A DNA stretch of 64,000 nt from an uncultured Alphaproteobacteria bacterium. Lineage in GTDB: Bacteria > Pseudomonadota > Alphaproteobacteria > UBA8366 > GCA-2717185. The stretch is from assembly GCA_943788635.1 (NCBI GenBank), contig CALSRA010000018.1:25001-89000 (forward strand), in the 5' to 3' direction. Below the pieces are notes generated by a model. It was given only the letters and a program-made list of their open reading frames with translations, had not been told where the DNA came from and did not search any database. The position numbers and the translations under genes were made by a program. This document shows positions 1 to 51,086 of the stretch, one piece after another (positions within the stretch are counted from its first letter, which is position 1; every line of letters begins with the position of its first letter).

Positions 1-975
1 AGGTTTGCCGGCGGCAACAGTGAGTTGCCATTCGACCAGGTCCTGCCCGGTGATCATCTCGCTGACCGGGTGTTCAACCTGCAGTCGTGTATTCATTTCC
101 ATGAAATAGAAGCCGTCGGATCGGCCGGTTTTTGCCCCCTCGACAATGAATTCGACGGTGCCTGCCCCCTCATAGCCAATTGCACGTGCGGCGGCGATCG
201 CGGCGTCGCCCATGGCGGTGCGCATTGCCGGGGTGACGCCGGGGGCAGGGGCTTCTTCGACCACTTTCTGGTGACGGCGCTGGATCGAACAGTCCCGTTC
301 GAACAGGTGCACGGCATTGTCGTGGCTGTCGGCAAAGACCTGCATTTCGATATGGCGCGGCTGCGTGACAAATTTTTCAATCAGGACCGTATCGTCGCCG
401 AAGCCGGTCATGGCTTCCCGCTTGGCACCTTCTAGGGCCTTTTCGAATTCCCCAGCCGAATCAACCCGGCGCATGCCGCGCCCGCCACCACCGGCGGATG
501 CCTTGATCAGAACCGGAAACCCGATTGATTCGGCTGCGGCGGCCAGAACGGCCGGATCCTGATCGTCCTCATGGTAGCCGGGCACCAGTGGCACGCCGGC
601 CGCACCCATGATCCGCTTGGCATTGACCTTTGATCCCATGGCGCGGATTGCCGCCGGCGGCGGGCCGACAAATACCGCACCTGCTGCGGCAACAGCTTCG
701 GCGAATTCGGCATTCTCCGACAGGAAACCGTAGCCGGGATGGACGGCCTGTGCGCCGCTGCGGCGGATGGCGTCTATAAGATGATCGATATCGAGATAGC
801 TTTCACGCGCCGGTGACGGGCCGATATGAAGGGCAGCGTCGGACAGGGCGACATGTCGCGATTCAGCATCCGCATCCGAATAGACAGCAATGACGCGTAT
901 ACCGAGGCGCCGTGCGGTCGCGGCGATACGGCAGGCGATTTCGCCGCGATTGGCGATGAGCAGTGAATCAAACAT
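1..975 (-). CDS. Biotin carboxylase (alpha) subunit of an acyl-CoA carboxylase, 5' part only
   Basis: The ORF track misses this gene because it runs off the left edge, but the minus strand reads open for 325 codons from the ATG at 973-975. The N-terminus reads [17 protein letters not shown], followed by [13 protein letters not shown], a glycine-rich ATP-grasp loop ([12 protein letters not shown]), the family signature [20 protein letters not shown] and [15 protein letters not shown]. These are the conserved blocks of biotin carboxylases, which carboxylate biotin with ATP and bicarbonate. The ANRGEIA start and overall spacing fit the alpha subunits of methylcrotonyl-, geranyl- or propionyl-CoA carboxylases, which continue into a C-terminal biotinyl domain. 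That part lies outside the window, so the substrate cannot be assigned. Confidence 0.93.
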
Positions 976-1077
976 GGATGGTATTGTACGCCGATGCCGT
1001 GGACAGGGGCCAGTGGCAAAGCCAAACTCGCACGACGATATGCCCGATTTCCCCGTTCGCCCGAAAAAAATAAAAGA

Positions 1078-1092
1078 GAACAAAAAAAGAAC
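1078..1092 (+). promoter_or_regulatory. LexA (SOS) box upstream of recA
   Basis: The sequence GAAC-AAAAAAA-GAAC is an exact GAAC-N7-GAAC direct repeat (GTTC-N7-GTTC on the other strand), the consensus operator of alphaproteobacterial LexA. It lies about 77 bases before the recA start and directly abuts the likely -35 hexamer, so bound LexA would block RNA polymerase. recA is a standard LexA target in this class. The match and position are seen; repression is inferred. Confidence 0.85.
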
Positions 1093-1120
1093 TTGCGCAT
1101 GAGAACAAACGGCGTACAGT
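1093..1120 (+). promoter_or_regulatory. Likely recA promoter (-35/-10)
   Basis: TTGCGC (1093-1098) and TACAGT (1115-1120) are separated by 16 bases and resemble housekeeping sigma factor elements. The -35 begins at the base after the LexA box ends. About 48 bases of leader remain before the recA ATG. Assignment is by eye only. Confidence 0.5.
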
Positions 1121-1168
1121 GAGGCTCTGTTTACAACCTTTCACTGCCGTGGGATATGGGAGAGAGAC

Positions 1169-2275
<1,107 letters not shown>

Positions 2276-2280
2276 TTGCG

Positions 2281-2320
2281 AGGTCGCCCTCACCAGACCT
2301 AGATGAGGCCGGTGAGGCGA
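2281..2320 (+). terminator. Possible hairpin downstream of recA
   Basis: GGTCGCCCTCACC and GGTGAGGCGATC can pair, with one bulged C, just after the recA stop. There is no clear T-run, so a factor-independent terminator is only a possibility. Confidence 0.3.
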
Positions 2321-2383
2321 TCTGGCTGGTTATTTCGATACGTCGGAAGAAGCTTGGCGGATTGGGCGGGCCGCAGGGACGCT

Positions 2384-2884
2384 TCAGTGAATGGTGTCCA
2401 GCGCTGCCGTAAACCCTTTCAATGAAACCGGTATGTTGAAAGGTTGCTGGTTTCCGCCAAAAAATGTCACGGTCGCGCCGTTGCCGCGTTTGAAGAGATC
2501 CAGGAAATTTTCATCAAAACCGAAACGGGCCTGACATCCGTTCGGCAGGCAGACCTCAACGGCCAGTTCATATGTTTGTCCATCGTCGATCTTGAAAGTG
2601 ATGCCGGACGCCAGATTCATGCCAAGCGGGACAACAATAAGGCCAATTGGCGCCTTGCTTTCTTCGGCATAGCCAACGAAGAAACGAAGGATGGGTTCGC
2701 GACTGTCCTTGACGATGATGTTCTGGAACATCCGACAGGACGAAGGTGCGCCGGTCGGCGAATTACACTGGATACGCCAAGAATCGTAAACTTTTCCGTG
2801 AGGATTCTCTGCGGATGCCGGTAGCGCCGACAGGACGGCGATCAGGCCGGCGATGATGACCGAAGGTATGAATTTCGAAGGCAT
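2384..2884 (-). CDS. IalB-like secreted protein
   Basis: 166 aa from the ATG at 2884, which I prefer over the ORF-track start at 2917 because it begins directly with a signal peptide (MPSKFIPSVIIAGLIAVLSALPASA). The mature part has the pattern of the invasion-associated locus B family: a WRIQC strand, a second cysteine in SSCRMFQ, PIGLIVVPLGMNLASG, then a Cys pair in VCLPNGCQARFGF. The family consists of small periplasmic proteins named from Bartonella but widespread in free-living alphaproteobacteria, with no established biochemical role. It lies convergent with recA. Confidence 0.8.
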   Translation of the reverse strand: MPSKFIPSVIIAGLIAVLSALPASAENPHGKVYDSWRIQCNSPTGAPSSCRMFQNIIVKDSREPILRFFVGYAEESKAPIGLIVVPLGMNLASGITFKIDDGQTYELAVEVCLPNGCQARFGFDENFLDLFKRGNGATVTFFGGNQQPFNIPVSLKGFTAALDTIH

Positions 2885-3138
2885 TATCCTGATGGTGCTC
2901 CTGTAACCGTCATTCATGAATTAGGATTTCTTCGAACAGTTTACGCGAAGCGGCTTGCCGACATCCACATCCTAAATTTGCGAACCCGCAATTATTCAAA
3001 GCCATCGATACCTGATGTACGCTGGACAGGCTTATAGCCCCGGGCTAAAACGCCGGTTCGCGCGGTTCGGAGCGCCAGTAGGCGAGGGTTGAGTTCGCGC
3101 CAAAAGGCGTCCGTTAGTACAGGACAAGGGTGCAGATC

Positions 3139-5796
3139 ATGCAGGGCGCCAACGAAATCAGGACCACCTTCCTGGATTATTTCCAGCGACATGGCCACGA
3201 GGTCGTCGCGTCATCGCCGCTTGTGCCGCGGAACGATCCGACCCTGTTGTTCACGAATGCGGGGATGGTGCAGTTCAAGAATGTCTTCACCGGCGCGGAA
3301 CAGCGGCCCTATGACCGAGCGACGACATCGCAGAAATGCGTCCGGGCCGGCGGTAAACACAACGACCTGGAGAATGTCGGATATACGGTTCGACATAATA
3401 CGTTTTTTGAAATGCTCGGGAATTTTTCGTTCGGCAACTATTTCAAGGAGCAGGCGATTGAGCTTGCCTGGAATCTGGTCACCCGGGAATTCGGTCTGCC
3501 CGTCGAAAAATTGCTGGTTACGGTTTATGCGGATGATCAGGAGGCGTTTGACCTGTGGCGCAAAATTGCCGGTCTGCCCGAAAGCAAAATTATCCGTATC
3601 GCGACCTCCGACAATTTCTGGGCAATGGGCGATACCGGGCCTTGTGGCCCGTGTTCGGAAATATTTTACGATCACGGCCCGCATATTCCGGGCGGCCCAC
3701 CGGGGAGCCCGGATGAAGATGGCGACAGGTTTATAGAAATCTGGAACCTGGTCTTCATGCAGTACGAACAGATCGGTGCGGACGAACGGGTCGCGCTGCC
3801 GCGGCCATCCGTTGACACGGGAATGGGGCTGGAACGCCTTACCGCGACGCTGCAGGGCACCAATGACAGTTTTGCCATCGACCTGTTCCGGTCGATCATT
3901 GAGGCGTCGGCGAACTTCACCAGTGTCGACCCTGACGGCAAAGGCGCCGTATCGCATCGTGTTATTGCAGATCACCTGCGCTCGTCCTGTTTCCTGATTG
4001 CCGACGGTGTGTTGCCGTCGAACGAGGGACGCGGGTATGTCCTGCGTCGAATTATGCGCCGCGCGATGCGTCATGTTCATCTGCTGGGCAGCCAGGACCC
4101 GCTTATGTGGCGGCTGGTGCCGACATTGGTCAAGATGATGGGGCAGGCCTATCCGGAACTGGTACGGGCGGAAGCGTTGATGACCGAGACGCTGAAGCTG
4201 GAGGAAACCCGTTTCAACCGCACCCTGGCGCGCGGCATGGGGTTGCTGCAGGAAGAAACGAATAAGCTTGGTGAAGGCGGTACGCTACAGGGAGATATCG
4301 CATTCCGGCTATACGATACCTTTGGTTTCCCGCTTGATCTGACTCAGGATGTCCTGCGGGGACAGGGCAAAAATGTCGATACCGCAGGTTTTGAAAGCAG
4401 CATGGAACGCCAGCGCGCCGAAGCGCGCAAGAACTGGAGCGGTTCGGGCGACGCTGCGACCGAAACAGTCTGGTTTGATATTCGGGAAACAACGGGTGCG
4501 ACCGAGTTTCTGGGGTATGCGACGGAGCGAGCGGAAGGTGTCGTTTCGGCTATCGTTGCCGATGGTACGTCGGTCGAACAGGCCACAGCGGGCACTGAGG
4601 CGGCGGTTATAGTCAATCAGACCCCGTTTTACGGTGAGTCTGGCGGACAGATGGGCGATACCGGGCTGATGTTTACGGCTGGCGGCGATGAATTTGTCGT
4701 CAACAATACGCAAAAGAAGCTTGATGATATCTACGTGCATCTGGGCGCGATACGGAAAGGCACATTGCGGGTTGGCGATACGGTTGAACTGGATGTCGAA
4801 GGTCGGCGGCGCACGCGTCTGCGGGCGAACCATTCGGTAACGCATCTGCTACATGAGGCGCTTCGGCGGCAATTGGGAGATCACGTGACGCAGAAAGGCT
4901 CGTTAGTTTCGCCCGACTATCTGCGTTTCGATTTCAGCCATCCCAAGCCGGTTGAGGACGATGAGTTGAAGGCTGTTGAGCAGGCGGTTAACGATCGTAT
5001 CCGCGGCAATAGCGAAGTGACGACGCGTCTGATGACGCCGGATGCGGCTGTCGAAGCGGGTGCATTGGCGCTGTTCGGTGAAAAATATGGCGAGGAGGTG
5101 CGTGTTGTTGCAATGGGCGGGGACGATAAGCACCGGTTTTCGGTAGAGCTTTGTGGCGGCACACATGTCGGCCGAACCGGGGACATCGGATATTTCACGA
5201 TTACCGCCGAATCCGGCGTTGCCGCAGGTGTCCGGCGTATTGAAGCTGTGACCGGTGCCGCCGCAGTGGAGCAGGCGCGGGCACAGACATCCCGCATGCG
5301 GGATGCCGCTGCGATGCTGAAGGCATCACCGGATGATCTGTCTGACCGGATCGGCAGCCTTATGGAAGACCGCCGACGCATGGAACGTGAGTTGTCGGAT
5401 TTACGTCACAAGCTGGCGATGGGTGGCGGCGGTGCAGCATCCGGCAGTGCCTCCGAGGTCAAGGTTGTCGCCGGTACTTCGGTCGCGTCCCGAATTCTCG
5501 CCGATGTGCCGGCTAAAGAGCTGAAGCCACTGGCAGATTCATTGAAATCACAGATTGGCAGCGGTGTTGTGGTGCTTATTTCCGTCAGCGACGGCAAGGC
5601 GTCCATTGTCGTCGCGGTCACCGAGGATTTGACGGAGCGGCTGAACGCAGTCGACCTGGTGCGCGTCGGTTCCGCGGCACTTGGCGGAAAAGGCGGGGGC
5701 GGCCGTCCCGACATGGCGCAGGCTGGTGGGCCGGATGGCGATGCCGCGGCGCAGGCCGTTACGGCGGTTGAGGAAGCTCTCGTTGAGCGGGCTTGA
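3139..5796 (+). CDS. alaS: Alanyl-tRNA synthetase
   Basis: 885 aa, normal for AlaRS. It charges tRNA-Ala in the cytoplasm and edits mischarged Ser/Gly. The class II core begins with [19 protein letters not shown] and contains [17 protein letters not shown] and [14 protein letters not shown]. The editing domain carries [12 protein letters not shown] together with the metal-binding [13 protein letters not shown]. The C-terminal coiled coil and the glycine-rich DHHA1 tail ([16 protein letters not shown]) are complete. The ORF track starts at a GTG at 3130; the ATG at 3139 is better spaced from AAGGG and matches the usual N-terminus. Confidence 0.97.
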
Positions 5797-17740: not shown

Positions 17741-18436
17741 ATGCACGACGTATTGAAGCCGGTTTTGGTGCCAATTCACCGCGAAGGTTGGCCTTTCATC
17801 GCAATCTTTGCGGTTGTTGCGCTGGTGCTCGGATGGATTTGGACACCACTTTATATTCCCGGCTGTATTCTGGTCGCCTGGTGCGTCTATTTCTTCAGGG
17901 ATCCCGACCGGGTGACGCCAATTCGTGCGGGGCTTGTTGTCAGTCCGGCAGATGGTGTCGTACAGATGATCCAGCCGGCGCCGCCGCCGGAAGAGCTGGA
18001 TATGGGGACCGAACCGTTGACCCGGGTCAGTGTGTTCATGAATGTATTCAACGTGCACGTAAACCGCATTCCAATCGATGGAACAATTGACAAGCTTTCT
18101 TACCGCCCGGGGAAGTTTCTGAACGCGTCGCTGGACAAAGCCAGTATCGACAATGAACGTCAGGCTGTACGCATGACGACCACCGACGGACACGCGGTTG
18201 CATTTGTACAGATCGCCGGTCTTGTTGCGCGACGGATTCTTTGCAATCTGACAATCGACCAGCCGGTTCTGGCGGGGGAACGGTTTGGTATGATCCGGTT
18301 TGGCAGCCGGGTCGATGTATATCTTCCCAACGGTATCGCCCCGCTTGTCTGTGTGGGGCAAAATTGTGTTGCCGGTGAGACGGTATTGGCGGATATGGTT
18401 GCCAGTGAGCCGGAGCGAAAAGGAGAAACCCGCTGA
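17741..18436 (+). CDS. psd: Phosphatidylserine decarboxylase proenzyme
   Basis: 231 aa, the short (type II, alphaproteobacterial) form. It converts phosphatidylserine to phosphatidylethanolamine at the inner membrane. Two N-terminal hydrophobic stretches give membrane attachment ([16 protein letters not shown]). The catalytic fold shows [27 protein letters not shown] and the self-cleavage site region [12 protein letters not shown], in which cleavage at Gly-Ser yields the pyruvoyl cofactor. Its stop overlaps the start of pssA (TGATG), so the two consecutive steps of the pathway are coupled. Confidence 0.95.
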
Positions 18437-19335
18437 TGTTGCGGTCCCGAAATCGCCGGAACAGGCGCCGCAGAGTCCCACGGCTTAAGGGGCTTTCGAT
18501 TGGCAAGCTGATCCCGAATATCATTACCGTATCCGCGGCATGTTGCGGTTTGACGGGTATTCGCTTCGCGATTGAAGAGCGATGGGAATATGCGGTAACG
18601 GCGATAATTGTTGCGGCCATTCTCGATGCGCTGGATGGCAGGATGGCGCGAATCCTGAACGCGTCGAGCGAGTTTGGCGCGCAGCTCGACTCCCTGGCGG
18701 ATATCGTGAGTTTCGGTGTTTCGCCAGCGCTGGTGCTGTATTTCTGGACATTGCAGGGCGGGGGGGGGATTGGCTGGGCGATTGCCCTGTTCTTCATTGT
18801 GTGTTGTGCGTTGCGGCTTGCTCGCTTCAACAGCATGCATGATAAATTACCGCCCTATGCTTTCAACTATTTTACAGGCGTTCCGGCGCCTGCCGGGGCC
18901 CTTATGTCAATGTTGCCGATTGTAATCGGACTTGGCTTCGGCGCGGATTGGCCTTCACATCCGATTGTCACCGGTCTTTGGACCGTCGCGATGGCCGCAC
19001 TGATGGTCAGTCGCTTGCCGTCATTCTCGTTCAAGAAAATCAGGGTTCCGCAGCCTTATGTGTTGCCCTTACTCGTTTGTGTCGGTTTGACCCTGGCGGG
19101 ATTGGCGGCATTTCCCTGGATCATCTTGACGGGGGTGGCCGTCGCGTACCTTTCGACATTCCCGTTTTCGGTGAGGTCTTATGTGCGGCTGAAGGCCGAA
19201 GCGGATCGCCTGCATGATGCGGAAGAAGAAAGCGCCGAAACCGACCGCGCCGCGACGGAAGGCGATAGCCCGGACGATACTCCGAACGATGACGACGGAA
19301 CGGGCCCAACGTCCCCCCAACTTGGACAGGTCTGA
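18436..19335 (+). CDS. pssA: CDP-diacylglycerol-serine O-phosphatidyltransferase
   Basis: 299 aa. It makes phosphatidylserine from CDP-diacylglycerol and serine, feeding psd. The CDP-alcohol phosphatidyltransferase motif is complete: LDALDGRMARILNASSEFGAQLDSLAD, with the D-G-AR-G-D-D pattern. About seven to eight membrane segments follow. The N-terminus is very basic (RSRNRRNRRRRVPRL), and the C-terminus ends in an acidic hydrophilic tail (ADRLHDAEEESAETD...), longer than in many homologues. Translation is coupled to psd by a one-base overlap. Confidence 0.95.
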   Translation: MLRSRNRRNRRRRVPRLKGLSIGKLIPNIITVSAACCGLTGIRFAIEERWEYAVTAIIVAAILDALDGRMARILNASSEFGAQLDSLADIVSFGVSPALVLYFWTLQGGGGIGWAIALFFIVCCALRLARFNSMHDKLPPYAFNYFTGVPAPAGALMSMLPIVIGLGFGADWPSHPIVTGLWTVAMAALMVSRLPSFSFKKIRVPQPYVLPLLVCVGLTLAGLAAFPWIILTGVAVAYLSTFPFSVRSYVRLKAEADRLHDAEEESAETDRAATEGDSPDDTPNDDDGTGPTSPQLGQV

Positions 19336-19549: not shown

Positions 19550-19810
19550 GACGCTAGACGGATTTTCCGGGTAGCATTTCATTAAAATCTTCAGTCTTGA
19601 CGGTGTCGAAGGCTGCGCGCGCCTTTGTGTCATTCCTTGGCGTCTGGTTCGGTCAGAAATTACCGATGCTGATCGTAATGTTTCGACGTGTTTGAAGATA
19701 TTTTGTCTGCTCTAAAGCCGGGAATTGTCGACACCTTGTAAGCGTTTGGTGAACCCGCCCTATTTGACCGCGTCATTATCTGCGACAGTTCCCGCCTGAT
19801 GGAGGGCGTT

Positions 19811-19836
19811 GGTGTCCACTATCGATGGTGGACACC
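19811..19836 (+). repeat. Perfect inverted repeat upstream of IS66 tnpA
   Basis: GGTGTCCAC and GTGGACACC form a 9-bp stem with an 8-base loop, inside the IS just before the tnpA start. It may limit transcription entering the element from outside, or be an operator. No T-run follows. Confidence 0.6.
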
Positions 19837-19850
19837 AAGTGGGTTTAAGG

Positions 19851-20246
19851 ATGCCAAAGAATCGACGCGTGCGGCGGTTGTGGGAAGACGAAGAGAAGAT
19901 ACGGATCGTGGCGCAGACGCGAGTTCCGGGGGTATCGGTTTCACAGGTGGCGCGTCGCTATGACGTGAACGCAAATCTGATATTCAAATGGCTGCGTGAT
20001 CCGCGTTTCAATCCGCTGCCAGTCGAAGACGCCACCCCATCATTTCTTCCAGTCGAGGTGGTCGCCGAACCGCTCGTCCTTGGTCCTCCCGTCATCGACG
20101 CGCCGGTTGTCGGTGCCCCTGTCAATGAGGTTGGGGTGTCGGGATCGCAGATCGAGATTGTCTCGCCGTCTGGACATCGCATCAGCGTCAGCGGCGCCTA
20201 TGACCCCGAGGCGCTGTGCCGTCTTGTGCGGGGGTTGGGTTCTTGA
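19851..20246 (+). CDS. tnpA: IS66 TnpA (Orf1)
   Basis: 131 aa from the ATG at 19851 ([20 protein letters not shown]). The helix-turn-helix region reads [23 protein letters not shown], as in IS66 accessory protein TnpA. The ORF-track start at 19809 (TTG) lies in the upstream inverted repeat and is unlikely. The stop overlaps the start of tnpB. Confidence 0.92.
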
Positions 20247-20590
20247 TTCCCGTTCCAAGCAACACGCGGGTCTGGCTGGCGGCTGGCGTGACGGACATGC
20301 GGCGGGGTTTTAATACGCTGGCGGCGCAAGCTGAGGCGTCGTTGTCGGAAGACCCGTACTCCGGCCACCTGTTCGTGTTCCGGGGTCGGCGTGGCGATCT
20401 ATTAAAGATCATCTGGTGGGACCAACAAGGAGCCTGCCTGTTCTCCAAACGTCTGGAGCGGGGGCGCTTCGTGTGGCCGGTGGCGAAAGACGGCAAGGTG
20501 TCGATGTCACCGGCACAACTCTCAATGCTTCTTGAAGGGATCGACTGGCGCATGCCGCAACGAACGTGGCGACCGCTGACGGTTGGGTAA
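20243..20590 (+). CDS. tnpB: IS66 TnpB (Orf2)
   Basis: 115 aa. The typical IS66 Orf2 signature is present: [41 protein letters not shown] and [13 protein letters not shown]. The start is probably the TTG at 20243 overlapping the tnpA stop (TTGA), although a GTG at 20216 is also in frame. It is required for transposition of IS66 elements but its role is not well defined. Confidence 0.92.
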
Positions 20591-20662
20591 AATCGTTTCA
20601 CAGCAAAGGTTTGCCAATCCTTGGGGATTCCTATGGACGGTGGCGTCTGATAGATTACTGGC

Positions 20663-22183
20663 ATGCTCGACAACGCCAAGAACCTCCCGAATGACGCTGC
20701 CGCCCTGAAGGGTTTGGTTACGACATTGGCGTCGGAGTTGAAGTCTCGCGACATTCTGATCGAGAAGCTCAAACATCAATTAGCCGGGATGCGTCAACAT
20801 CGCTTCGGGTCCCGTTCCGAGGCCCTGGATCAACTGACGTTGACGCTGGAAGACGAAGAGATTGCCGCAGCCGCGCAAGAACCCGCGCCAGACGACGCCA
20901 ATACCGATCAAGCCGCAACGCCGCCAAAGGGCAAACCCAAGCGTAAACCGCTGCCCGGTCATCTCCCGCGCAACGAGACTACACTGTCGCCGGGCGACGC
21001 CTGTGGGCACTGTGGCGGCAAACTAAAAACGCTTGGCGACGATGTCACCGAGGAATTGGAATATGTCCCCGGACGTTTTGTGGTGAACCGGATAGTCCGC
21101 CCCCGCATGGCCTGCACCTGCTGCGAGACGTTCCATCAGGCGGCCCTGCCGTCGCGGCCGATTGAGCGCGGGCGTCCCGGCCCCGGTCTGCTCGCCCATA
21201 TTCTGGTAAATAAATACGCCGATCATTCGCCTTTGTACCGGCAAAGTCAGATATTCGAGCGCGAGGGTATCGACCTGGATCGCTCCACCCTGGCCGACTG
21301 GGTTGGTAAATCCACGGCCCTGCTGGAACCTTTGGCGGACGCCATCGCGCGCCATGTCCTGAAAGGACAGGCTCTCTTCGCCGATGACACGCCGGTAAAG
21401 TTGCTGGCTCCAGGTTTCGGCAAAACCAGGACAGCCCGACTTTGGGCCTATGTCCGCGACGAACGTCCCTGGGCCGGAGAGGCGCATCCCGCCACGTGGT
21501 ATCAATTCTCGCCCGACAGGAAGGGCGTTCGTCCGCGTGAACATCTGGCTGCCTACGAGGGCTTCATGCACGCGGATGGTTATGCGGGCTTCAATGACCT
21601 GTACCGCACGGGCAAAGTGACGGAGGTCGCCTGCATGGCCCATATCCGGCGCAAGTTCGTCGATATCCACAAATCTCAGGGATCGGCGATTGCTGATGAG
21701 GCCATAAAACGGATCGCCCAACTCTATGCCGTCGAGAAAGCGGCGCGCGGTTCACCGCCGGATGAACGGCGGCGGCTAAGGCAGGAAAAGGCAAAGCCTG
21801 TTCTCGACGACCTGGAAGCATGGCTGCATGCCCAACTGACCAGGATATCCGGCAAATCGCCCCTTGCCGGAGCCATTCGCTATGCCCTGACACGAATGAA
21901 ACGGCTTCGGCCGTATCTGGAACATGGCTTCCTGGAATTGGACAACAACACCGCAGAAAGAAGCATGCGGGCTATCGCCCTGGGCCGGAAGAATTATCTC
22001 TTCATGGGCTCCGAAGGCGGCGGCAGATCAGCCGCAATTGCCTATACGCTGATCGAGACCGCGAAGCTCAATGGCGTCGACCCGCAGGCATGGCTCACCG
22101 ACACGCTCGGCCGCATCGCAGATCACAAGATCACCCGCATCAACGAGCTCCTGCCCTGGCGTTACGCTGAAGCCTCAGCGTAA
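20663..22183 (+). CDS. tnpC: IS66 transposase TnpC
   Basis: 506 aa. The N-terminal coiled-coil segment ([28 protein letters not shown]) precedes a zinc-binding region ([17 protein letters not shown]) and the DDE core, with D in [11 protein letters not shown] in [13 protein letters not shown] and E in [22 protein letters not shown]. The C-terminal IS66 signature [25 protein letters not shown] is complete. No disruption is visible, so the element may be mobile. Confidence 0.95.
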
Positions 22184-22892: not shown

Positions 22893-24041
22893 TCAGTCTG
22901 CCGCCTCCGAGGCGCTATCTCCCAGTATTTCATCCGTATGCTCGCCATGTCGTGGCGCCGGTCGCCGTACACCGCCCGGTGTCCCGTTCAATTTTATTGG
23001 CGTGCCCAGTACCCGAGTGGCGCCGGCTGACGGATGGTCGACGGGGATGACCATGTTGCGTGCCTCTGTCTGCGGGTCGGCGAACAGTTCCGCGTGGTTC
23101 ATGACCGGGCCTGCCGGGATGCCTTTCGCGTCGAGAAGCTGAAACCATTCGTCGGATGTCTTTTCGATCAGTCGCTGTTCCAGCATTGCGACGAGTTCCT
23201 TGTTGTTCTTTACCCGGTCGGCCTTTGTTACGAAGCGCGGGTCTTCGATGAGTTCGGCATGTCCCAGAACTTCACAGGTCAGGCTCCAGAACCGCTGTGC
23301 GGCGGCGCCGATAGCAATATGGCCGTCTGCGGTCGGAAAGATCTGGTAGGGGGCGCTACCACGGTGGCGCTGGCCCAGTTTCTCGGGGGCTTTGCCTGTT
23401 GCGAAATAGGAAGCAGCCTCATAGAAGCCAAGTGATATTCCGGATTCAAACAGGGAGATATCCACCTGTTGCCCTTCGCCGGTTTTCTCCCGTGCTGCAA
23501 GGGCTGTCAGGACGCCGATGGCGCCATTCATGCCACCGCACAAGTCGGTAATCGGAATCGGCAGGCGGTGCGGTGGTCCGTCTTCGTCGCCACATATCGC
23601 TGCCAGGCCGGTCATGGCCTGACTGATCAAGTCGAAACCGCCGCGGCTGGCATAGGGGCCGGTCTGTCCAAAACCTGAAATCGAACAATAAATCAGACGT
23701 GGATTCAGCGCCTGCATGGTGTCGTACCCGATACCGATCCGATCAGCCGTTCCCGGCTTGAAATTTTCAATCATGATGTCCGCATCTGCAGCGAGGCGTT
23801 TGAAACTCTCCAGGCCTTCGGCTGTTTTCAGGTCGATAACGACACTGCGTTTGTTTCGGTTCGCCAGCATGAACGGTGCGCTCTCCCCGCCGATGAATGG
23901 CGGGGTCAGCCGCATGTCATCGCCGACCGTTGGGCGTTCGATCTTGATTACATCGGCACCCTGGTCCGCCAGGATCATGGCGCAATAGGGGCCGGACAGG
24001 TTCGATGTGAGGTCCAAAACTTTTAAGTGCGAAAGCGCCAT
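22893..24041 (-). CDS. Class III (CaiB/BaiF) CoA transferase
   Basis: 382 aa from the ATG at 24041 ([20 protein letters not shown]), preceded by GGAAGGAAATAAAA; the ORF-track start at 24134 adds a non-homologous stretch. Conserved blocks are [25 protein letters not shown], the catalytic Asp region MIENFKPG...[22 protein letters not shown], and [11 protein letters not shown]. Family members move CoA between acyl-CoAs and carboxylic acids. The substrate cannot be read from sequence. It is transcribed divergently from the phosphonate operon across 110 bp. Confidence 0.92.
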
Positions 24042-24151
24042 TTTTATTTCCTTCCGGATCGCGTATTTATGGTCACAAAATTGTAACGCTATTTCGTGCC
24101 CGGTGGAATTCGGGCCCGAAGCCAAGGCCAGCAAGGGACGTCAACGGGACC

Positions 24152-25813
24152 ATGACTGCAAACTCTATTCAAATCGTAGAATCCACACCACAGGCTTTGT
24201 CCAAGACGGGCCAATTCCGCCAACTGCTGACCGATCCGGAAATGGCTTTCATCATGGAAGCCCATAATGGACTGTCGGCCCGGATTGTTGAAGAGGCCGG
24301 ATTCAAGGGCGTATGGGCCTCGGGTCTCAGTATCTCGGCTGCGCTGGGCGTGCGTGACAATAACGAGGCTTCCTGGACCCAGGTTCTGGAAGTCCTGGAG
24401 TTTATGTCAGACGCGACTTCGATCCCGATTCTGGTCGATGGCGATACGGGATATGGTAATTTCAACAATATGCGGCGGTTGGTGACCAAGCTGTCGCAGC
24501 GCGGCATCGCGGCGGTTTGTATCGAGGATAAACTGTTCCCCAAGACGAACAGTTTCATCGGACAGGCGCAACCGCTTGCCGACATCGACGAATTTTGCGG
24601 CAAGATCAAGGCTGGCAAAGACAGCCAGCTTGACGATGATTTCTGCGTCATTGCCCGGATTGAGGCATTGATTGCGGGCTGGGGCGTGGATGAAGCACTG
24701 CGCCGCGGCGAGGCCTATCATGAAGCTGGTGCCGATGCGGTATTGATCCATTCGAAGGTCGCAGAGCCGGATGAAATTTTCACGTTTTGTAAGGAATGGG
24801 GGAACCGGAGTCCCGTCGTGATCGTGCCGACCATGTATTACGCGACCCCGACGCAACAGTTCCGTGACCACGACATTTCGCTGGTGATCTGGGCCAATCA
24901 CAATATGCGCGCCGCGATGCAGGCGATGCGGAATATCAGCGAAACGATTTTTCGCACCGAAACGCTAGCGGATGTTGAAGACACAATCCCGACGGTGGGA
25001 GAGGTTTTCAAAATTACCGGCAATGACGAACTCGCGGCGGCAGAGGCCCGATACCTGCCAAAACGGGGGGCGGGTTACAACGCCGTTGTGCTGGCGGCGT
25101 CGCGTGGGGCGGGGCTGGGTCCTCTCACAGAAGACCGGCCGAAATGCATGATCGACGTCAGGGGACAGCCTTTGCTGCGTCGACAGGTGGCGATGCTGAA
25201 TGGCGCCGGTATCCGCGATGTAACCGTTGTCAGGGGGTACCGGAAGGAAGCGATCGATCTCCTGTCGATCAATACGGCCGACAACGACCGCTTTGCCGAC
25301 ACGGGTGAGCTGTATTCGCTCAATTGCGCGCGCAAGGTCCTGAACCAGCCGACCCTGGTTACCTATGGCGATATTCTGTTCCGCGACTACATGCTGGATA
25401 CGTTGCTGCGTACTGACGGGGATATCGTCATCGTCGCGGACGCCTTGTGGCAGGACAGGGAACAATCGGCCGAAGGGCTGGTACGTGATCTCATCATCGG
25501 CGACGCCGCGTTTTCCACCGACTATCTGGAAGATTCACCCGTACACTTACTGGAAGTTGGCAATGATGTGGCCCGCGACACGGCAACGGGCGAATGGGTC
25601 GGGCTGCTGAAGCTCAGCGAAGCAGGCGCGAAGACGGTAGCCGGGGAACTGGTTGCCATGGAAGCTGATGGCAGCCTTGAGAAGGGGGATGTGCCGAGCC
25701 TGTTGACCCGGCTGATTGCCGGGGGCCACAAGGTACGTGTCCAGTATATCACCGGCCAGTGGCTGGATATTGACGATGCGCTGGACCTGGCCCGGGCGAG
25801 GAACCTGTTGTGA
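24152..25813 (+). CDS. aepX: Phosphoenolpyruvate mutase fused to a nucleotidyltransferase
   Basis: 553 aa with two domains. Residues about 20-300 are a PEP mutase: [12 protein letters not shown] (about 95-106) and the diagnostic [10 protein letters not shown] (125-134), which separates true mutases from other isocitrate-lyase-like enzymes. The mutase makes phosphonopyruvate, the entry step to C-P bonded compounds. From about residue 309 a sugar-nucleotidyltransferase-like domain begins, [22 protein letters not shown], with the metal-binding region [12 protein letters not shown]. Fused domains of this type are expected to activate a phosphonate headgroup as a CMP ester. The stop overlaps the GTG of the next gene (GTGA), so the decarboxylase is coupled. 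The symbol follows the mutase domain. Confidence 0.92.
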
Positions 25814-26952
25814 TCAAGGCTGACGAGTTTCTCGATCAGGCTCTGGCCGCAGGATATGACTTTTACACCGGGGTTCCGTGTTCTTTCCTGACGCCGGTGA
25901 TCAACCGCGTCATTTCGCGTAAGGATATCCGTTACGTTCCTGCGGCGAGTGAAGGGGAAGCGACGGCGATTGCCGCCGGTGCCTGGCTGGCCGGGCGAAA
26001 GACAGTATTAATCTGCCAGAATTCCGGCCTCGGTAACGCGATCAACCCACTGACCTCGCTGAATCATCCATTCAAGATTCCAACCCTGATGATCGTGACA
26101 TGGCGCGGACAGCCGGGACTGAATGATGAACCGCAGCACGTTTTGATGGGGCAGATCACGGATGTCCTGCTGACGGATATCGACGTACCGAACGAGTCTT
26201 TCCCCAGCGAAACAGCCGATATTGCCCCTGCGTTGGGCCGTGCCTTCGCGCATATGGATACTGCCGACTTGCCTTACGCCTTCATCATGGCGACAGGCTC
26301 GGTGGCGTCGGAAGGACTGGAGGAAACCCCCGCGTTGGCGACTCCGGGCGACGCGCTAAGCGACTTTACCACCGGGGGCGAACGCCCGGCGCGCTACGAT
26401 ACGCTGGAGCGATTGCTGAAGGTAACGCCGGATTCGGCCGGGATCGTATGCACGACAGGCAAAAGTGGGCGCGAGCTGTTCACGATCGAAGACCGCAAGC
26501 AGCATATCTACCAGGTCGGGTCGATGGGCAGCGCCAGCGCGATGGGGCTGGGGATAGCGGTAAATGTGGCGCGTCCAATTGTGGTCATCGATGGCGATGG
26601 CGCGGCGTTGATGAAAATGGGCAACATGGCGACGATTGGCGCACAGGCGCCCAAGAATCTCATCCATGTGCTGGTGGATAATGGTGTGCATGATTCCACG
26701 GGGGGACAGGCGACCGTATCCGGCGGCGTTGATTTTGCCCGTATCGCGCTTGCCTGCGGCTATGCCAGTGCGGCGTCAGCCGATGATCTGGACGGGTTTG
26801 AGTGCGCGATACAGGCTGCCTATGCCAGCGACGGCCCGCACATGGTCCACATTCGTATCCAGCCGGGTAGCCTTGAAAAACTGGGGCGCCCAACCGTATC
26901 ACCCGATGTTGTTGCCAGACGCTTCAAGGCATTCCTCGCGTCCGCTGATTGA
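25810..26952 (+). CDS. aepY: Phosphonopyruvate decarboxylase
   Basis: 380 aa, thiamine-diphosphate dependent. It converts phosphonopyruvate to phosphonoacetaldehyde and pulls the unfavourable PEP mutase reaction forward. The N-terminus has the family pattern [19 protein letters not shown] and [18 protein letters not shown] with the catalytic Glu. The cofactor-binding region reads [20 protein letters not shown]...[13 protein letters not shown]. It starts with a GTG overlapping the mutase stop. No aminotransferase or alcohol dehydrogenase for the next step is in the window, so the final product (aminoethyl- or hydroxyethylphosphonate) is open. Confidence 0.93.
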
Positions 26953-26966
26953 AGGGCGGTATCGCT

Positions 26967-27755
26967 ATGCGATCTGCGTCGTATGAAATTATTGATGATT
27001 TGGGTGCCGGAGCGCCATGGCTGTTGATGGTGCATGGCATCTCGCAGAACCGGCGTGTGTTTTCCAACCAAGTGTCGTTTTTCCGTGCCACGTATCGCCT
27101 GCTGCTGGTTGATCTTCCGGGACATGGCTTGTCTTCCGACATACCGGGTCCCTACGGGCTGGATGAATACGCGGCGAGCATTGCCGGTGCGATGGATGAC
27201 GCCGGCGTAACGGGGGCGGTGTTCTGGGGAACCCACCTTGGTGCAGCCGCGGGTCTTCTTTTGGGGTGCCGGGAAGCGGCCCGATTCTCGGCGCTGATAT
27301 TGGAAGGTCCCGTTTTTCCCGGACGCTCCATGCCGGCTGTCGCGCAGGTTTTGGCAAGTGTTGGTGAAACTGCCAGGAACAAGGGATTGGCAGCTGCCAG
27401 GAAGCTTTGGTGGGAAGAGGGTGGCTGGTTCGATGTGATGCGAGACAGGCCGGAAGAATGCCGGGCCGTGAGCCAGATCGCGATCATCGACGAATTCGAG
27501 GGCGCGCCCTGGCTTGACCCCGGCCTCATCGGGCCCGTTACGCTTTCTGAAGAGAATCTTCGGACGCTCGGCCAGCCGGTGCTAATCATGAATGGCGAAC
27601 ACGATTTGCCGGACTTTTTAAAAGCCGCCAATGATTTGTCCGCGCTGATACCCGATTGCCGCCGCGTGTCCGTCAGGGACGGCGGGGGCTTTCCATTCTG
27701 GGAATTCCCCGACCGCGTAAACAAGGAAGTACGTGCATTTCTGCACAGCCTTTGA
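26967..27755 (+). CDS. Alpha/beta-hydrolase-fold protein lacking the catalytic Ser and His
   Basis: 262 aa from the ATG at 26967, preceded by AAGGGCGG; the ORF-track TTG at 26949 is less likely. The fold is clear: WLLMVHGISQNRRVF (oxyanion region), LLLVDLPGHGLSSD, and the acid-containing strand VLIMNGEHDLPDF. At the nucleophile elbow, however, G-x-S-x-G is replaced by GTHLG, and the usual C-terminal GxGHxxxxE appears as GGGFPFWEFP with no His. It is therefore probably not a conventional esterase. It follows the decarboxylase by 14 bases and belongs to the same operon, so a role in phosphonate assembly is inferred. Confidence 0.8.
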   Translation: MRSASYEIIDDLGAGAPWLLMVHGISQNRRVFSNQVSFFRATYRLLLVDLPGHGLSSDIPGPYGLDEYAASIAGAMDDAGVTGAVFWGTHLGAAAGLLLGCREAARFSALILEGPVFPGRSMPAVAQVLASVGETARNKGLAAARKLWWEEGGWFDVMRDRPEECRAVSQIAIIDEFEGAPWLDPGLIGPVTLSEENLRTLGQPVLIMNGEHDLPDFLKAANDLSALIPDCRRVSVRDGGGFPFWEFPDRVNKEVRAFLHSL

Positions 27756-27767
27756 CGGCCCTTGGTA

Positions 27768-28964
27768 TCAGATGGTCCCGGCGTCCTTCAATGCGGCGAT
27801 CCGGGCTGCGTCGTAGCCAAGTTCTTTCAGCAATTCATCCGTATCCTGTCCAAGTTCCGGACCGGGCTGGTTGGGCGTTGGCTCGCCTGCATCAAACGGT
27901 GCGTCCAGCATACGGAACGCACTGCCGTTCTGGTGTTGGAGAGTCTGGATTTTGCCGTTATCGGTGACATATGGGTTATCCAGCGCCTGCGCGACGTCGA
28001 GAATGGGGGCCGCCGGGACCGTGCCAGCAAAAATTTCGAGCCATTCGTCGGTTTTTTTCGTTGAAAGTTGCTCGTCCAGTATTCCCTGGATCTCCGGGCG
28101 GCGTTCCAGCCGGTCCTTGAACGTCAGGTAGCGCGGGTCAGTGCCCCATTCCGGGCGTCCGATTGCATTGCACAGGGCCGGCCAGAATTTTTCCTTGTTG
28201 CACATCAGGAATATCCAGCCGTCCTTGGTCTTGTACTGGGCACAAGGTGTCAGGGCAGGGTGTCCGGATCGTTCTTCGCGGCCCTGATTGTGCCCGGTGT
28301 TCAGATACCAGGTGCCGGGATAGGACAGATTGGTCATCGCCAGATCGAACAGGTTTACATCGACATTGCGCCCTGTGCCGGTCGCACGCGCGGCCAGCAC
28401 GGCGGATACTGCGGTATAGGCCATGCCCAGTCCCGTCATCAGGTCGACGATGGACAGGCCCATGCGGGTCGGGTTGCCGTCCGGTTCCCCGGTGAGGGAG
28501 AAATAGCCTGCCTCTGCCTGCATCAGGTAGTCATAGCCGGGCCATTTCTGGCGCGGTCCCTCGCGGCCATAGGCCGTGAGGAAGGCGCAGACGATGCGCG
28601 GGTTGATTTTCCCGAGCGTTTCATAGGTCAGGCCGAGCTTTTTTGGTACATCGCCGCGCAGGTTACATGCCAGAACGTCGGCGGTCGGAACCAGGTCATG
28701 CAAAACAGCTTGTCCTTCCGGCGTGCCGAGATCGAGCGTCAGGCTGCGTTTGTTGCGGTTGATGCTCTGGAAGAACAGGCTGCCGGAACTGCTTTCCCCT
28801 TCATCGATGAAGAAGGGCCCGACGCTGCGGCTCATATCGCCGCCATCCTTGGGGTTCTCGATCTTGATGACTTCGGCGCCCAGGTCGGCCATGTATTGGG
28901 TGCCCCAGGGGCCGGCACCATATTGTTCAACGGCGAGTACGCGCACGCCTTGCAGCGGTAACAT
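27768..28964 (-). CDS. Class III (CaiB/BaiF) CoA transferase
   Basis: 398 aa. Typical motifs are VLAVEQYGAGPWGTQYMADLGAEVIKIE, INRNKRSLTLDL, and the GYDYLMQAEAGYFSLTGEP block preceding the active-site region; VDVNLFDLAMTNL follows. It ends the minus-strand operon that begins at 33574 and lies 10 bases from the acyl-CoA dehydrogenase, so it probably activates or recycles the carboxylic acid handled by that operon. It is only distantly similar to the CoA transferase at 22893. Substrate unknown. Confidence 0.92.
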   Translation of the reverse strand: MLPLQGVRVLAVEQYGAGPWGTQYMADLGAEVIKIENPKDGGDMSRSVGPFFIDEGESSSGSLFFQSINRNKRSLTLDLGTPEGQAVLHDLVPTADVLACNLRGDVPKKLGLTYETLGKINPRIVCAFLTAYGREGPRQKWPGYDYLMQAEAGYFSLTGEPDGNPTRMGLSIVDLMTGLGMAYTAVSAVLAARATGTGRNVDVNLFDLAMTNLSYPGTWYLNTGHNQGREERSGHPALTPCAQYKTKDGWIFLMCNKEKFWPALCNAIGRPEWGTDPRYLTFKDRLERRPEIQGILDEQLSTKKTDEWLEIFAGTVPAAPILDVAQALDNPYVTDNGKIQTLQHQNGSAFRMLDAPFDAGEPTPNQPGPELGQDTDELLKELGYDAARIAALKDAGTI

Positions 28965-28973
28965 TCAGGTCTC

Positions 28974-30134
28974 CTAGATCGGGTTACGGGCGATGAGCTG
29001 CCGCGCAATGATAATACGCTGCAATTCGTTCGTGCCTTCACCGATGGTCAGCAGCGGGGCATCCCGATAATAGCGTTCAACAGGGAATTCCTTGGAATAG
29101 CCATATCCGCCATGGACACGTAACGCTTCCATCGAATTGGTGACGGCAGCTTCGGTGGCGAACAGCTTCGCCATGCCGGCTTCCATGTCGCAGCGCTCGC
29201 CACGGTCGAAGGCGTCGGCAGCCCGATAGACAAGAAGCCGGGCGGCCTCTGTCCGTGTCACCATGTCTGCGAGTTTGAGCTGGATCGCCTGATGCTCCGC
29301 AATGGGCTTCCCGAAGGTTTCGCGTTGTTGCGAATATTTGACGGATTCATCCAGGGCCGCCTGCGAAACACCGACGCCGCGTGCTGCGACATTGATCCGG
29401 CCCAGTTCCAGCCCGCCCATGATATGCCGAAACCCTTGCCCTTCGATGCCACCAATCAGGTTTTCCGCCGGGACATGGCAGTCTTCGAATACCAGTTCGG
29501 CGGAATCGATCCCCTTGTAGCCAAGCTTCTCGAGCTTTCGCGATGGGCGGAAACCTTCACCCTTTTCGACCAGGAAAACACTGACGCCCTTGTGGCGCGG
29601 TTCCGCGTTCAGGTCGGTCTTCACCATTACGGCGAAGCAATGCCCGTGAATGCCGTTGGAAATCCAGGTTTTGGTGCCGTTGATGCGATAGCCGTCGCCT
29701 TCGCGGTCGGCGCGGGTTCGGATGGCCTGCAGATCGGTGCCGCAATTGGGCTCGGTCAGTGCCAGCCCGCCACGAATTTCACCAGTGGCGAACTTGGGCA
29801 GCCATTTGCGTTTCTGTTCTTCCGTACCGGCGCGCTGCACACAGGACGCCATGATGAGGTGCGAATTGAAGATGCCTGACAGCGACATCCATTCGCGGCT
29901 TACCCTCTCGACGATTTTCGCATAGGTGCTGCAGGACAGACCCAGCCCACCATATTCCTCCAGTATGATCGAGCCGAACAGCCCGAGTTCCGCCATCTTG
30001 CCGACGATGTCTTCCGGCCAGATATCTTCGTGCTCCAGATGCATCGCATAGGGTTTGACGTCGCGTTCGAGGAACTGATCGACACTGTCGAGGATCAGCC
30101 GTTCTTCTTCATCGTTGCTTGCCGGGTCCGACAT
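28974..30134 (-). CDS. Acyl-CoA dehydrogenase
   Basis: 386 aa, normal for the family. FAD-dependent alpha,beta-oxidation of an acyl-CoA, passing electrons to ETF. Visible blocks are LALTEPNCGTDLQAIRTRA (FAD/substrate region), TKTWISNGIHGHCFAVM, RETFGKPIAEHQAIQLKLADM and the C-terminal ALRVHGGYGYSKEFPVERYYRDA, LLTIGEGTNELQR with the expected Glu (GEGT). It is the fifth gene of the Rieske-dioxygenase operon. The actual acyl chain is unknown. Confidence 0.93.
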   Translation of the reverse strand: MSDPASNDEEERLILDSVDQFLERDVKPYAMHLEHEDIWPEDIVGKMAELGLFGSIILEEYGGLGLSCSTYAKIVERVSREWMSLSGIFNSHLIMASCVQRAGTEEQKRKWLPKFATGEIRGGLALTEPNCGTDLQAIRTRADREGDGYRINGTKTWISNGIHGHCFAVMVKTDLNAEPRHKGVSVFLVEKGEGFRPSRKLEKLGYKGIDSAELVFEDCHVPAENLIGGIEGQGFRHIMGGLELGRINVAARGVGVSQAALDESVKYSQQRETFGKPIAEHQAIQLKLADMVTRTEAARLLVYRAADAFDRGERCDMEAGMAKLFATEAAVTNSMEALRVHGGYGYSKEFPVERYYRDAPLLTIGEGTNELQRIIIARQLIARNPI

Positions 30135-49894: not shown

Positions 49895-49918
49895 TTTCGT
49901 GTCGCTGAATTCGCGAAA
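49895..49918 (+). promoter_or_regulatory. Leader hairpin before serC, possible serC RNA motif
   Basis: TTTCGTG pairs with CGCGAAA over a 10-base loop, and the last As of the stem run into the AAAGG ribosome binding site, so folding would restrict ribosome access. A second short stem (CGCC-GCTCAAG-GGCG) lies at about 49862-49876. A putative serC leader RNA has been described upstream of this gene in alphaproteobacteria; I cannot check the match to its covariance model here. Confidence 0.4.
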
Positions 49919-49928
49919 GGACATGACA

Positions 49929-51086
49929 ATGCCGATGCCCACAGAACGCCCGGAAAATCCGAATTTCTCTTCCGGTCCCTGCGCCAAACGTCCGGGCTGG
50001 ACGCCAGAGGCACTGGCAAACGCCTTTTTGGGGCGGTCGCATCGTTCGACGGAAGGCAAGGCCCGTCTTGCAGAGGTCATTGACCGTCATCGCGCCCTGT
50101 TGCGCCTGCCGGATGACTACCGTCTCGCCATTGTTCCTGCCTCTGATACAGGGGCAATGGAAATGGCCATGTGGACGATGCTGGGCGCCCGCGGCGTCGA
50201 TATGCTCGCTTGGGAATCTTTCGGGGCAGGATGGGTCAGTGATGTGACCAACCAGTTGAAGCTGGATGACGTGCGGGCATTGAAGGCTGAATACGGTTTG
50301 CTGCCGGATCTTGGACAGGTTGATTTCGACCGCGATGTCGTCTTCACCTGGAATGGTACGACGAGCGGCGTGCGGGTCCCGAATGGTGACTGGATTCCGG
50401 CGGACCGCAAGGGATTGACCTTCTGCGATGCGACGTCGGCGGTTTTTGCCATGGATATCCCCTGGGACAAGATTGATGTCGCGACCTGGTCCTGGCAGAA
50501 GGTCCTGGGTGGTGAGGCGGCGCACGGCATGCTGGTGTTATCACCGCGCGCCGTCGAGCGGCTTGAATCCTTCGTGCCGCCGCGGCCGCTGCCGAAAATT
50601 TTCCGACTGACCAAGGGGGGCAAATTTGAAGAAGGCCCTTTCAAGGGACTGACGATCAATACGCCGTCCATGCTGGCGGTTGAGGATTGCCTCGATACGC
50701 TGAAATGGGCAGAGTCCATTGGCGGATTGGAAGCGCTGATTGCGCGGAGCGAGGCGAATTTTGCCGCTATCGACAAATGGGTCGCCACGCGTGACTGGGT
50801 CGAATTCCTGGCAAAGGACCCGTTGACGCGTTCCTGCACCTCAATCTGTCTAGCGTTGTCGGATAATGTGCCGCTCGATGCTGACGCTCTTGCTGCCGCG
50901 CCGAAACGGATTGCGAAGCGTCTGGAGGAAGTGGGGGCTGCGTATGATATTGGTGGCTATCGCGATGCGCCTCCGGGGCTGCGTCTCTGGGGCGGTTCGA
51001 CTGTGGAAAGCGCCGATATGGCGGCACTGACACCCTGGCTCGACTGGGCTTATGAAGAAATCTTCGAGACTGCACCCGCGGCCTGA
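49929..51086 (+). CDS. serC: Phosphoserine aminotransferase
   Basis: 385 aa from the ATG at 49929 ([23 protein letters not shown]), eight bases after GAAAGG; the ATG at 49923 and the ORF-track GTG at 49899 are less well placed. PLP enzyme of serine synthesis and pyridoxine synthesis. It is the alphaproteobacterial type: [25 protein letters not shown], and the PLP lysine in [16 protein letters not shown]. serA follows 15 bases downstream, making a serine biosynthesis operon. Confidence 0.95.

Follow-up and report, generated by a model that had tools for sequence, protein, structure and literature searches.

A minimal phosphonate-biosynthesis operon with a PEP mutase-fused PF12804 domain of altered signature and a hydrolase-fold protein without the Ser-His pair

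The window (the whole stretch of DNA analyzed, 64,000 nucleotides) carries at 24152-27755 three co-directional genes encoding a PEP mutase-PF12804 fusion, a phosphonopyruvate decarboxylase (Ppd), and an alpha/beta-hydrolase-fold protein (Table 1), and in this respect the operon was found as the first-pass annotation had described it. The open reading frames comprised 553, 380, and 268 amino acids; the first two overlapped by 4 bp (GTGA), the start of ppd overlapping the stop of the fusion gene. The third frame opened with a TTG codon at 26949, but because of comparison with both orthologues, those of G001 and G002, we placed the start of the hydrolase gene at the ATG at 26967, which is probably the true one. 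The fusion scored 387 bits against the PEP mutase model TIGR02320 (cutoff, 319.6) and only 249 bits against the phosphonopyruvate hydrolase model (cutoff, 374), contained the EDKxxxxxNS motif, and matched PF13714 (215 bits) and, at residues 311 to 429, PF12804 (42.7 bits). The solved PEP mutase nearest to it was 1m1b (427 bits). Ppd likewise scored above the cutoff of its model. The earlier claims of C-P bond formation and of a decarboxylase were upheld by these matches, and the predicted formation of the C-P bond by the fusion and decarboxylation by Ppd are well supported at the level of sequence. No aminotransferase or reductase was found among the open reading frames of the operon. The order of all three genes was kept in two sister species of the same genus (G001 and G002; the window genome is G000), and all three were under purifying selection (dN/dS of ~0.04 to 0.18 by NG86 against these two species, with dS saturated in some pairs). 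Overall, the three genes amount to a minimal operon for phosphonate biosynthesis and fall within the pnt kind already known.

Table 1. Positions of the genes and altered motifs in the window
Feature	Positions	Strand	Basis or remarks
PEP mutase-PF12804 fusion	24152..25813	+	Mutase residues ~16-304; C-terminal PF12804 (LicC/PntC-fold) domain ~308-553
Changed nucleotidyltransferase signature	25091..25144	+	Alignment of 86 fused versus 38 unfused domains; consensus from PMC6697681
Ppd (phosphonopyruvate decarboxylase)	25810..26952	+	GTG start; TIGR03297, 428 bits (cutoff, 312.5)
Alpha/beta-hydrolase-fold protein, rare subfamily without Ser-His pair	26967..27755 (probable start)	+	PF00561, 58 bits
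Nucleophile elbow GTHLG, Ser to His96	27228..27242	+	Strand-helix turn by the secondary structure of the model
GGGF in place of catalytic His (GHFP in related hydrolases)	27681..27692	+	Alignment with outgroups

The operon was flanked on the opposite strand by CoA-transferase and acyl-CoA dehydrogenase genes (window 22893-24134 and 27768-30134); this arrangement recurred in several members of the family, with no evident functional link to the operon. The psd-pssA pair (17741-19335), considered as candidate phosphonolipid genes, scored as an ordinary phosphatidylserine decarboxylase and synthase, and between this pair and the phosphonate region three open reading frames (19809-22183) resembled, by reading and not by family search, an IS66-type insertion element; the gap at this position was shorter in the sister genomes. 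The usual unit in the window's family consisted of the fusion and ppd without a hydrolase gene, placed in several genomes between opposite-strand CoA-transferase genes. A hydrolase gene came after ppd in three species alone, all of the window's genus (G000, G001, and G002), and orthologues at this operon position were found only in the latter two; the genus has one further genome, the fourth (64% complete), which gave no intact match to the fusion. The search of gene neighborhoods that the first-pass annotation had recommended for the three-gene set thus traced the set to this genus alone, relatives in the family having two genes only. A LicD-family gene lay directly upstream of the fusion in one member of the family (L054, in G005); LicD was not found in G000 to G002, so that the LicD linkage of a Pnt-type 2-aminoethylphosphonate (AEP) gene set was lacking there.

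Fusions of PEP mutase to PF12804 are already known and are not new: about a third of PEP mutases carry this domain (Rice et al. 2019, PMC6697681), and the same survey takes a nucleotidyltransferase domain on a PEP mutase to indicate that the phosphonate is activated as a CMP conjugate. The PntCs assayed by its authors were only ones not fused to Ppm. In a limited literature search, nothing further on the fusion was found after that paper. Our scan of genome contigs gave 405 related stretches, of which the best 80 were examined for the fusion; it was present in all of these (at least 53% identity), one copy being cut off by a contig end, and its hosts among them were Alphaproteobacteria, Nitrospira, Verrucomicrobia, Bacteriovorax, Ignavibacteria, Cohnella, and others. 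Among these best 80 of 405, an unfused nucleotidyltransferase domain with an intact signature was also present at 32 fusion loci, no unfused copy was present in the fetched stretch at 48, and a PhnW-like (AEP-transaminase-like) gene was present at 24; in other lineages the cluster adds both the unfused nucleotidyltransferase and the AEP-transaminase-like gene. One locus (L051, G020:C14, 7310-10292) carried a second, unfused PEP mutase together with a separate nucleotidyltransferase keeping the canonical LAAGLGTRLRPLT signature. The operon thus shares with published Pnt (phosphonyl tailoring) clusters that carry the Ppm-PF12804 fusion (PMC6697681) an EDKxxxxxNS PEP mutase fused to PF12804, a Ppd, and, in related loci, LicD and a transaminase, but it differs from them in having neither an unfused PntC nor a linked transaminase and in its extra hydrolase-fold gene. 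Fom1 of fosfomycin synthesis also bears a cytidylyltransferase-type domain on its PEP mutase, but that domain belongs to PF01467 and is N-terminal (per PMC6697681), whereas in the window fusion it belongs to PF12804 and is C-terminal.

Fused domains (86 distinct sequences) were aligned with 38 unfused domains from the same neighborhoods, and in the resulting tree the fused clade separated without error from the unfused domains (support, 0.82). Where the PntC signature reads GxG(T/S)R...PK, the window fusion reads SRGAG...PK, with Gly replaced by Ser317, Arg replaced by Gly321, and Lys331 kept. In the unfused domains the first Gly and the pyrophosphate-binding Arg were both present in 38 of 38. 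In the fused domains the first Gly was found in 2 of 86, with Ser at this position in 76, and the pyrophosphate-loop Arg was likewise found in 2 (G001 and G002), being otherwise replaced mostly by Glu or Ala; the residue after the Ser was Arg, Gln, or Lys in 79, 6, and 1 domains, respectively. The catalytic Lys and the Asp of the GD motif were present in all 86, the metal-binding Glu was replaced by Asp in 85, and the second metal-binding Asp was replaced by Asn in 37. These counts are not independent, the loss of the Arg being probably a single ancestral event in the fused clade, and a Fisher p-value computed on them does not express a probability for independent events. The fused domains of G001 and G002 (loci L039 and L052) read SRGKRLG, with Arg at the position where it is lost elsewhere in the clade. 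An AF2 model of the window's fused domain (pLDDT, 92) had LicC (1jyk) and PntC (6pd2) as its best Foldseek matches in the PDB. In comparison with PntC (Tde1415, PDB 6PD1/6PD2) and LicC (1JYK), the fused domain therefore shares the fold, the catalytic Lys, the GD Asp, and an acidic metal-site position, but it has lost GxG(T/S)R, has Asp for the metal Glu, and falls in a separate clade. The fused clade thus retains the fold and most of the catalytic residues but has a rebuilt pyrophosphate loop. In Tde-PntC, R15A and K25A each left <10% activity (PMC6697681). The activation of a phosphonate as a CMP conjugate, as first proposed for the fusion, retains in its favor the LicC/PntC-like predicted fold, the catalytic Lys, and the acidic metal-site positions, but it is weakened by the change of the GxG(T/S)R loop throughout the fused clade, because replacement of the Arg in PntC is so costly. 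A nucleotidyltransferase on contig C4 of the window genome was rejected as the missing PntC, its GCDPHdlase-like and APS-kinase-like neighbors pointing to a phosphoramidate cluster. This likely phosphoramidate-modification cluster (L141, G000:C4:1-12000, at ~1-5400) comprised a gamma-glutamyl-CDP-amidate hydrolase-like protein (84.9 bits, below cutoff), a LicC-like nucleotidyltransferase, an APS-kinase-family protein, and a CDP-alcohol phosphotransferase, and was followed by genes reading like those of NeuB/NeuC-type nonulosonic acid synthesis; the window genome may therefore carry both P-N and C-P modification.

The third step of the pathway is missing from the operon, not from the genome. 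The window genome encoded one clear AEP transaminase, PhnW, on contig C36 (NF010006, 540 bits; TIGR03301, 472 bits, cutoff 360.8), so that the transaminase expected within a Pnt-type AEP gene set lies on another contig. The earlier statement that this step is absent thus holds for the operon, where no aminotransferase or reductase is found, and fails for the genome. SerC (49899-51086) was rejected as the transaminase, scoring as a phosphoserine transaminase (654 bits). On C36, phnW was followed by a gene for PhnA phosphonoacetate hydrolase (TIGR02335, 576 bits), and the pair recurred in G001, G004, G005, and G010. This PhnW-PhnA operon for AEP breakdown (L140, 2493-4877), conserved in several relatives, coexists in the window genome with phosphonate-making genes. 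PhnW next to PhnA is a degradation-type, catabolic pairing; PhnW may therefore serve catabolism only, and the product of the operon may not be AEP. No phosphonoacetaldehyde dehydrogenase scored above cutoff in the window genome, and the salvage route itself therefore looks incomplete. AEP transaminases are reversible, and PhnW of the window genome could therefore supply AEP. Rice et al. observed the conversion of AEP to phosphonoacetaldehyde with Tde1415 (PMC6697681). In related Rhodospirillales (L058, L061, L065, L066, and L072), a PhnW-type gene lay immediately downstream of ppd in convergent orientation, its product being 56 to 60% identical to PhnW of the window genome.

The product of the third gene has the alpha/beta-hydrolase fold by family match and by Foldseek comparison with 2xua (E value, 7.7e-16; TM score, 0.76). 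Its AF2 model, of moderate quality (pLDDT, 74), matched enol-lactonase and esterase folds, with 2xua as the best, and was used for the position of the nucleophile elbow only and not for active-site geometry. The protein resembles 3-oxoadipate enol-lactonase (PcaD)-like hydrolases in overall fold but differs from them in having His for the catalytic Ser and Gly for the catalytic His, so that a Ser-His-Asp triad is absent. Both the T-H-x-G elbow and the GGFP that replaces the catalytic His were invariant in 12 aligned sequences. Ser and His are retained (GSSLG and GHFP) in homologues that are less closely related but come from the same family of genomes. Judged from these residues, classical serine-hydrolase catalysis by this protein is unlikely; a limited literature search found no report on a hydrolase with His at the nucleophile position. 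A sample of 385 alphaproteobacterial genomes contained the Ser-less subfamily in 5, one of them the window's own (E value, ≤1e-40). A homologue in G006 adjoined a LysR regulator and a FAA-hydrolase-like gene, and others lay near thioesterase and dehydrogenase genes. In G010, a relative of the hydrolase gene ended a run of aconitase-family and isocitrate-lyase/PEP-mutase-superfamily genes (L169, G010:C80, 5409-8686), possibly a 2-methylcitrate-like or dimethylmalate-like pathway. Ppd had no match at the nonphosphonate loci of hydrolase homologues, and the only matches to PEP mutase at homologue loci elsewhere were at ~30% identity, that is, at superfamily level.

With moderate confidence we favor, as a whole, a pnt operon with amination by PhnW, a re-tuned fused domain, and an accessory hydrolase; the degradation-type setting of PhnW, the lack of a LicD match in G000 to G002, and the 84% completeness of the window genome were counted against this explanation. 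By family membership, the mutase domain would convert PEP to phosphonopyruvate and Ppd would convert phosphonopyruvate to phosphonoacetaldehyde, which would most likely be aminated to AEP by PhnW from the other contig, since PhnW-type transaminases adjoin ppd in the related Rhodospirillales. The product would most likely end on a surface glycan or lipid, a destination suggested by one relative, in which a LicD-family gene immediately precedes the fusion. The fused domain, which keeps the catalytic Lys and the acidic metal-site positions and has a Ser-Arg pair in exchange for the pyrophosphate-binding Arg and first Gly, appears re-tuned, with a putative effect of the changed loop on its function, and more likely serves, in modified form, nucleotide binding or nucleotidyl transfer than the reaction of a standard AEP cytidylyltransferase. 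The hydrolase gene was added beside ppd in this genus and is probably accessory to the pathway, not its missing third step.

We hold it tentatively possible that the fused domain is after all an ordinary phosphonate cytidylyltransferase, in which the Arg of LAASRG replaces the lost Arg and which converts AEP or another phosphonate to a CMP conjugate. The invariant catalytic Lys and Asp, the Arg or Lys after the Ser in 80 of the 86 domains, the best structural matches to LicC and PntC, the adjoining LicD in G005, and the 48 of the best 80 of 405 loci without an unfused copy in the fetched stretch would all agree with this, but the low activity of PntC upon Arg-to-Ala exchange and the Asn at the second metal site in 37 of 86 do not, and at the 32 of 80 loci with an intact unfused domain and the 24 with an AEP-transaminase-like gene, a second enzyme could do the job. 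A domain without nucleotidyl transfer, binding CTP or a CMP conjugate and regulating or scaffolding the mutase, seems unlikely to us. It would fit the fixed absence, across phyla, of the first Gly and the pyrophosphate-loop Arg from a domain strongly conserved as a whole, and the coexistence of intact unfused copies, yet a purely structural domain would not need an invariant catalytic Lys and metal-site residues, and two sister species have the Arg in place. Rather doubtful is a combined proposal, in which the PEP mutase-fused PF12804 domain is a distinct nucleotide-dependent enzyme or a CTP/CMP-conjugate sensor, not of the PntC type, that in this genus works with the triad-less alpha/beta-hydrolase.

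As to the product, a nonamino phosphonate (e.g., hydroxyethylphosphonate made by a general aldehyde reductase), with PhnW-PhnA as unrelated salvage, would be in keeping with the catabolic pairing of PhnW, but we consider it unlikely, given that salvage looks incomplete in the window genome, where no phosphonoacetaldehyde dehydrogenase scored above cutoff, and that ppd has PhnW-type neighbors in related lineages. It is very unlikely that phosphonoacetaldehyde or phosphonopyruvate undergoes a new third step catalyzed by the hydrolase-fold protein: its gene overlaps or nearly abuts ppd in the three species of the genus and its odd active-site residues are conserved, but the gene is missing from the other fusion-ppd operons of the family, and homologues of 45 to 60% identity occur in LysR/FAA-hydrolase-like, aconitase-like, thioesterase, and dehydrogenase contexts. 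Replacement of the transaminase by the hydrolase, as the first-pass annotation had it, was rejected as the main view, since related operons have two genes only, relatives without the hydrolase also have no operon-linked transaminase, homologues lie away from phosphonate genes, and PhnW is encoded elsewhere. Its description of the operon as the strongest candidate for new chemistry was overstated on the same grounds, the hydrolase not standing in for the third step.

With the hydrolase regarded as accessory and the fused domain as re-tuned, the locus offers two testable puzzles: a fused clade that has lost the Arg and the first Gly, and a rare hydrolase subfamily without Ser and His. The changed residues make the question of the fused domain testable with one purified protein, and the Arg carried by the two sister species means that natural variants also allow such a test. 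Should the PF12804 fused clade prove unable to catalyze the standard reaction, one step would be misassigned in a large share of the phosphonate pathways predicted so far, and if the fused domain is a distinct enzyme or sensor, the reading of phosphonate pathways from genomes would change.
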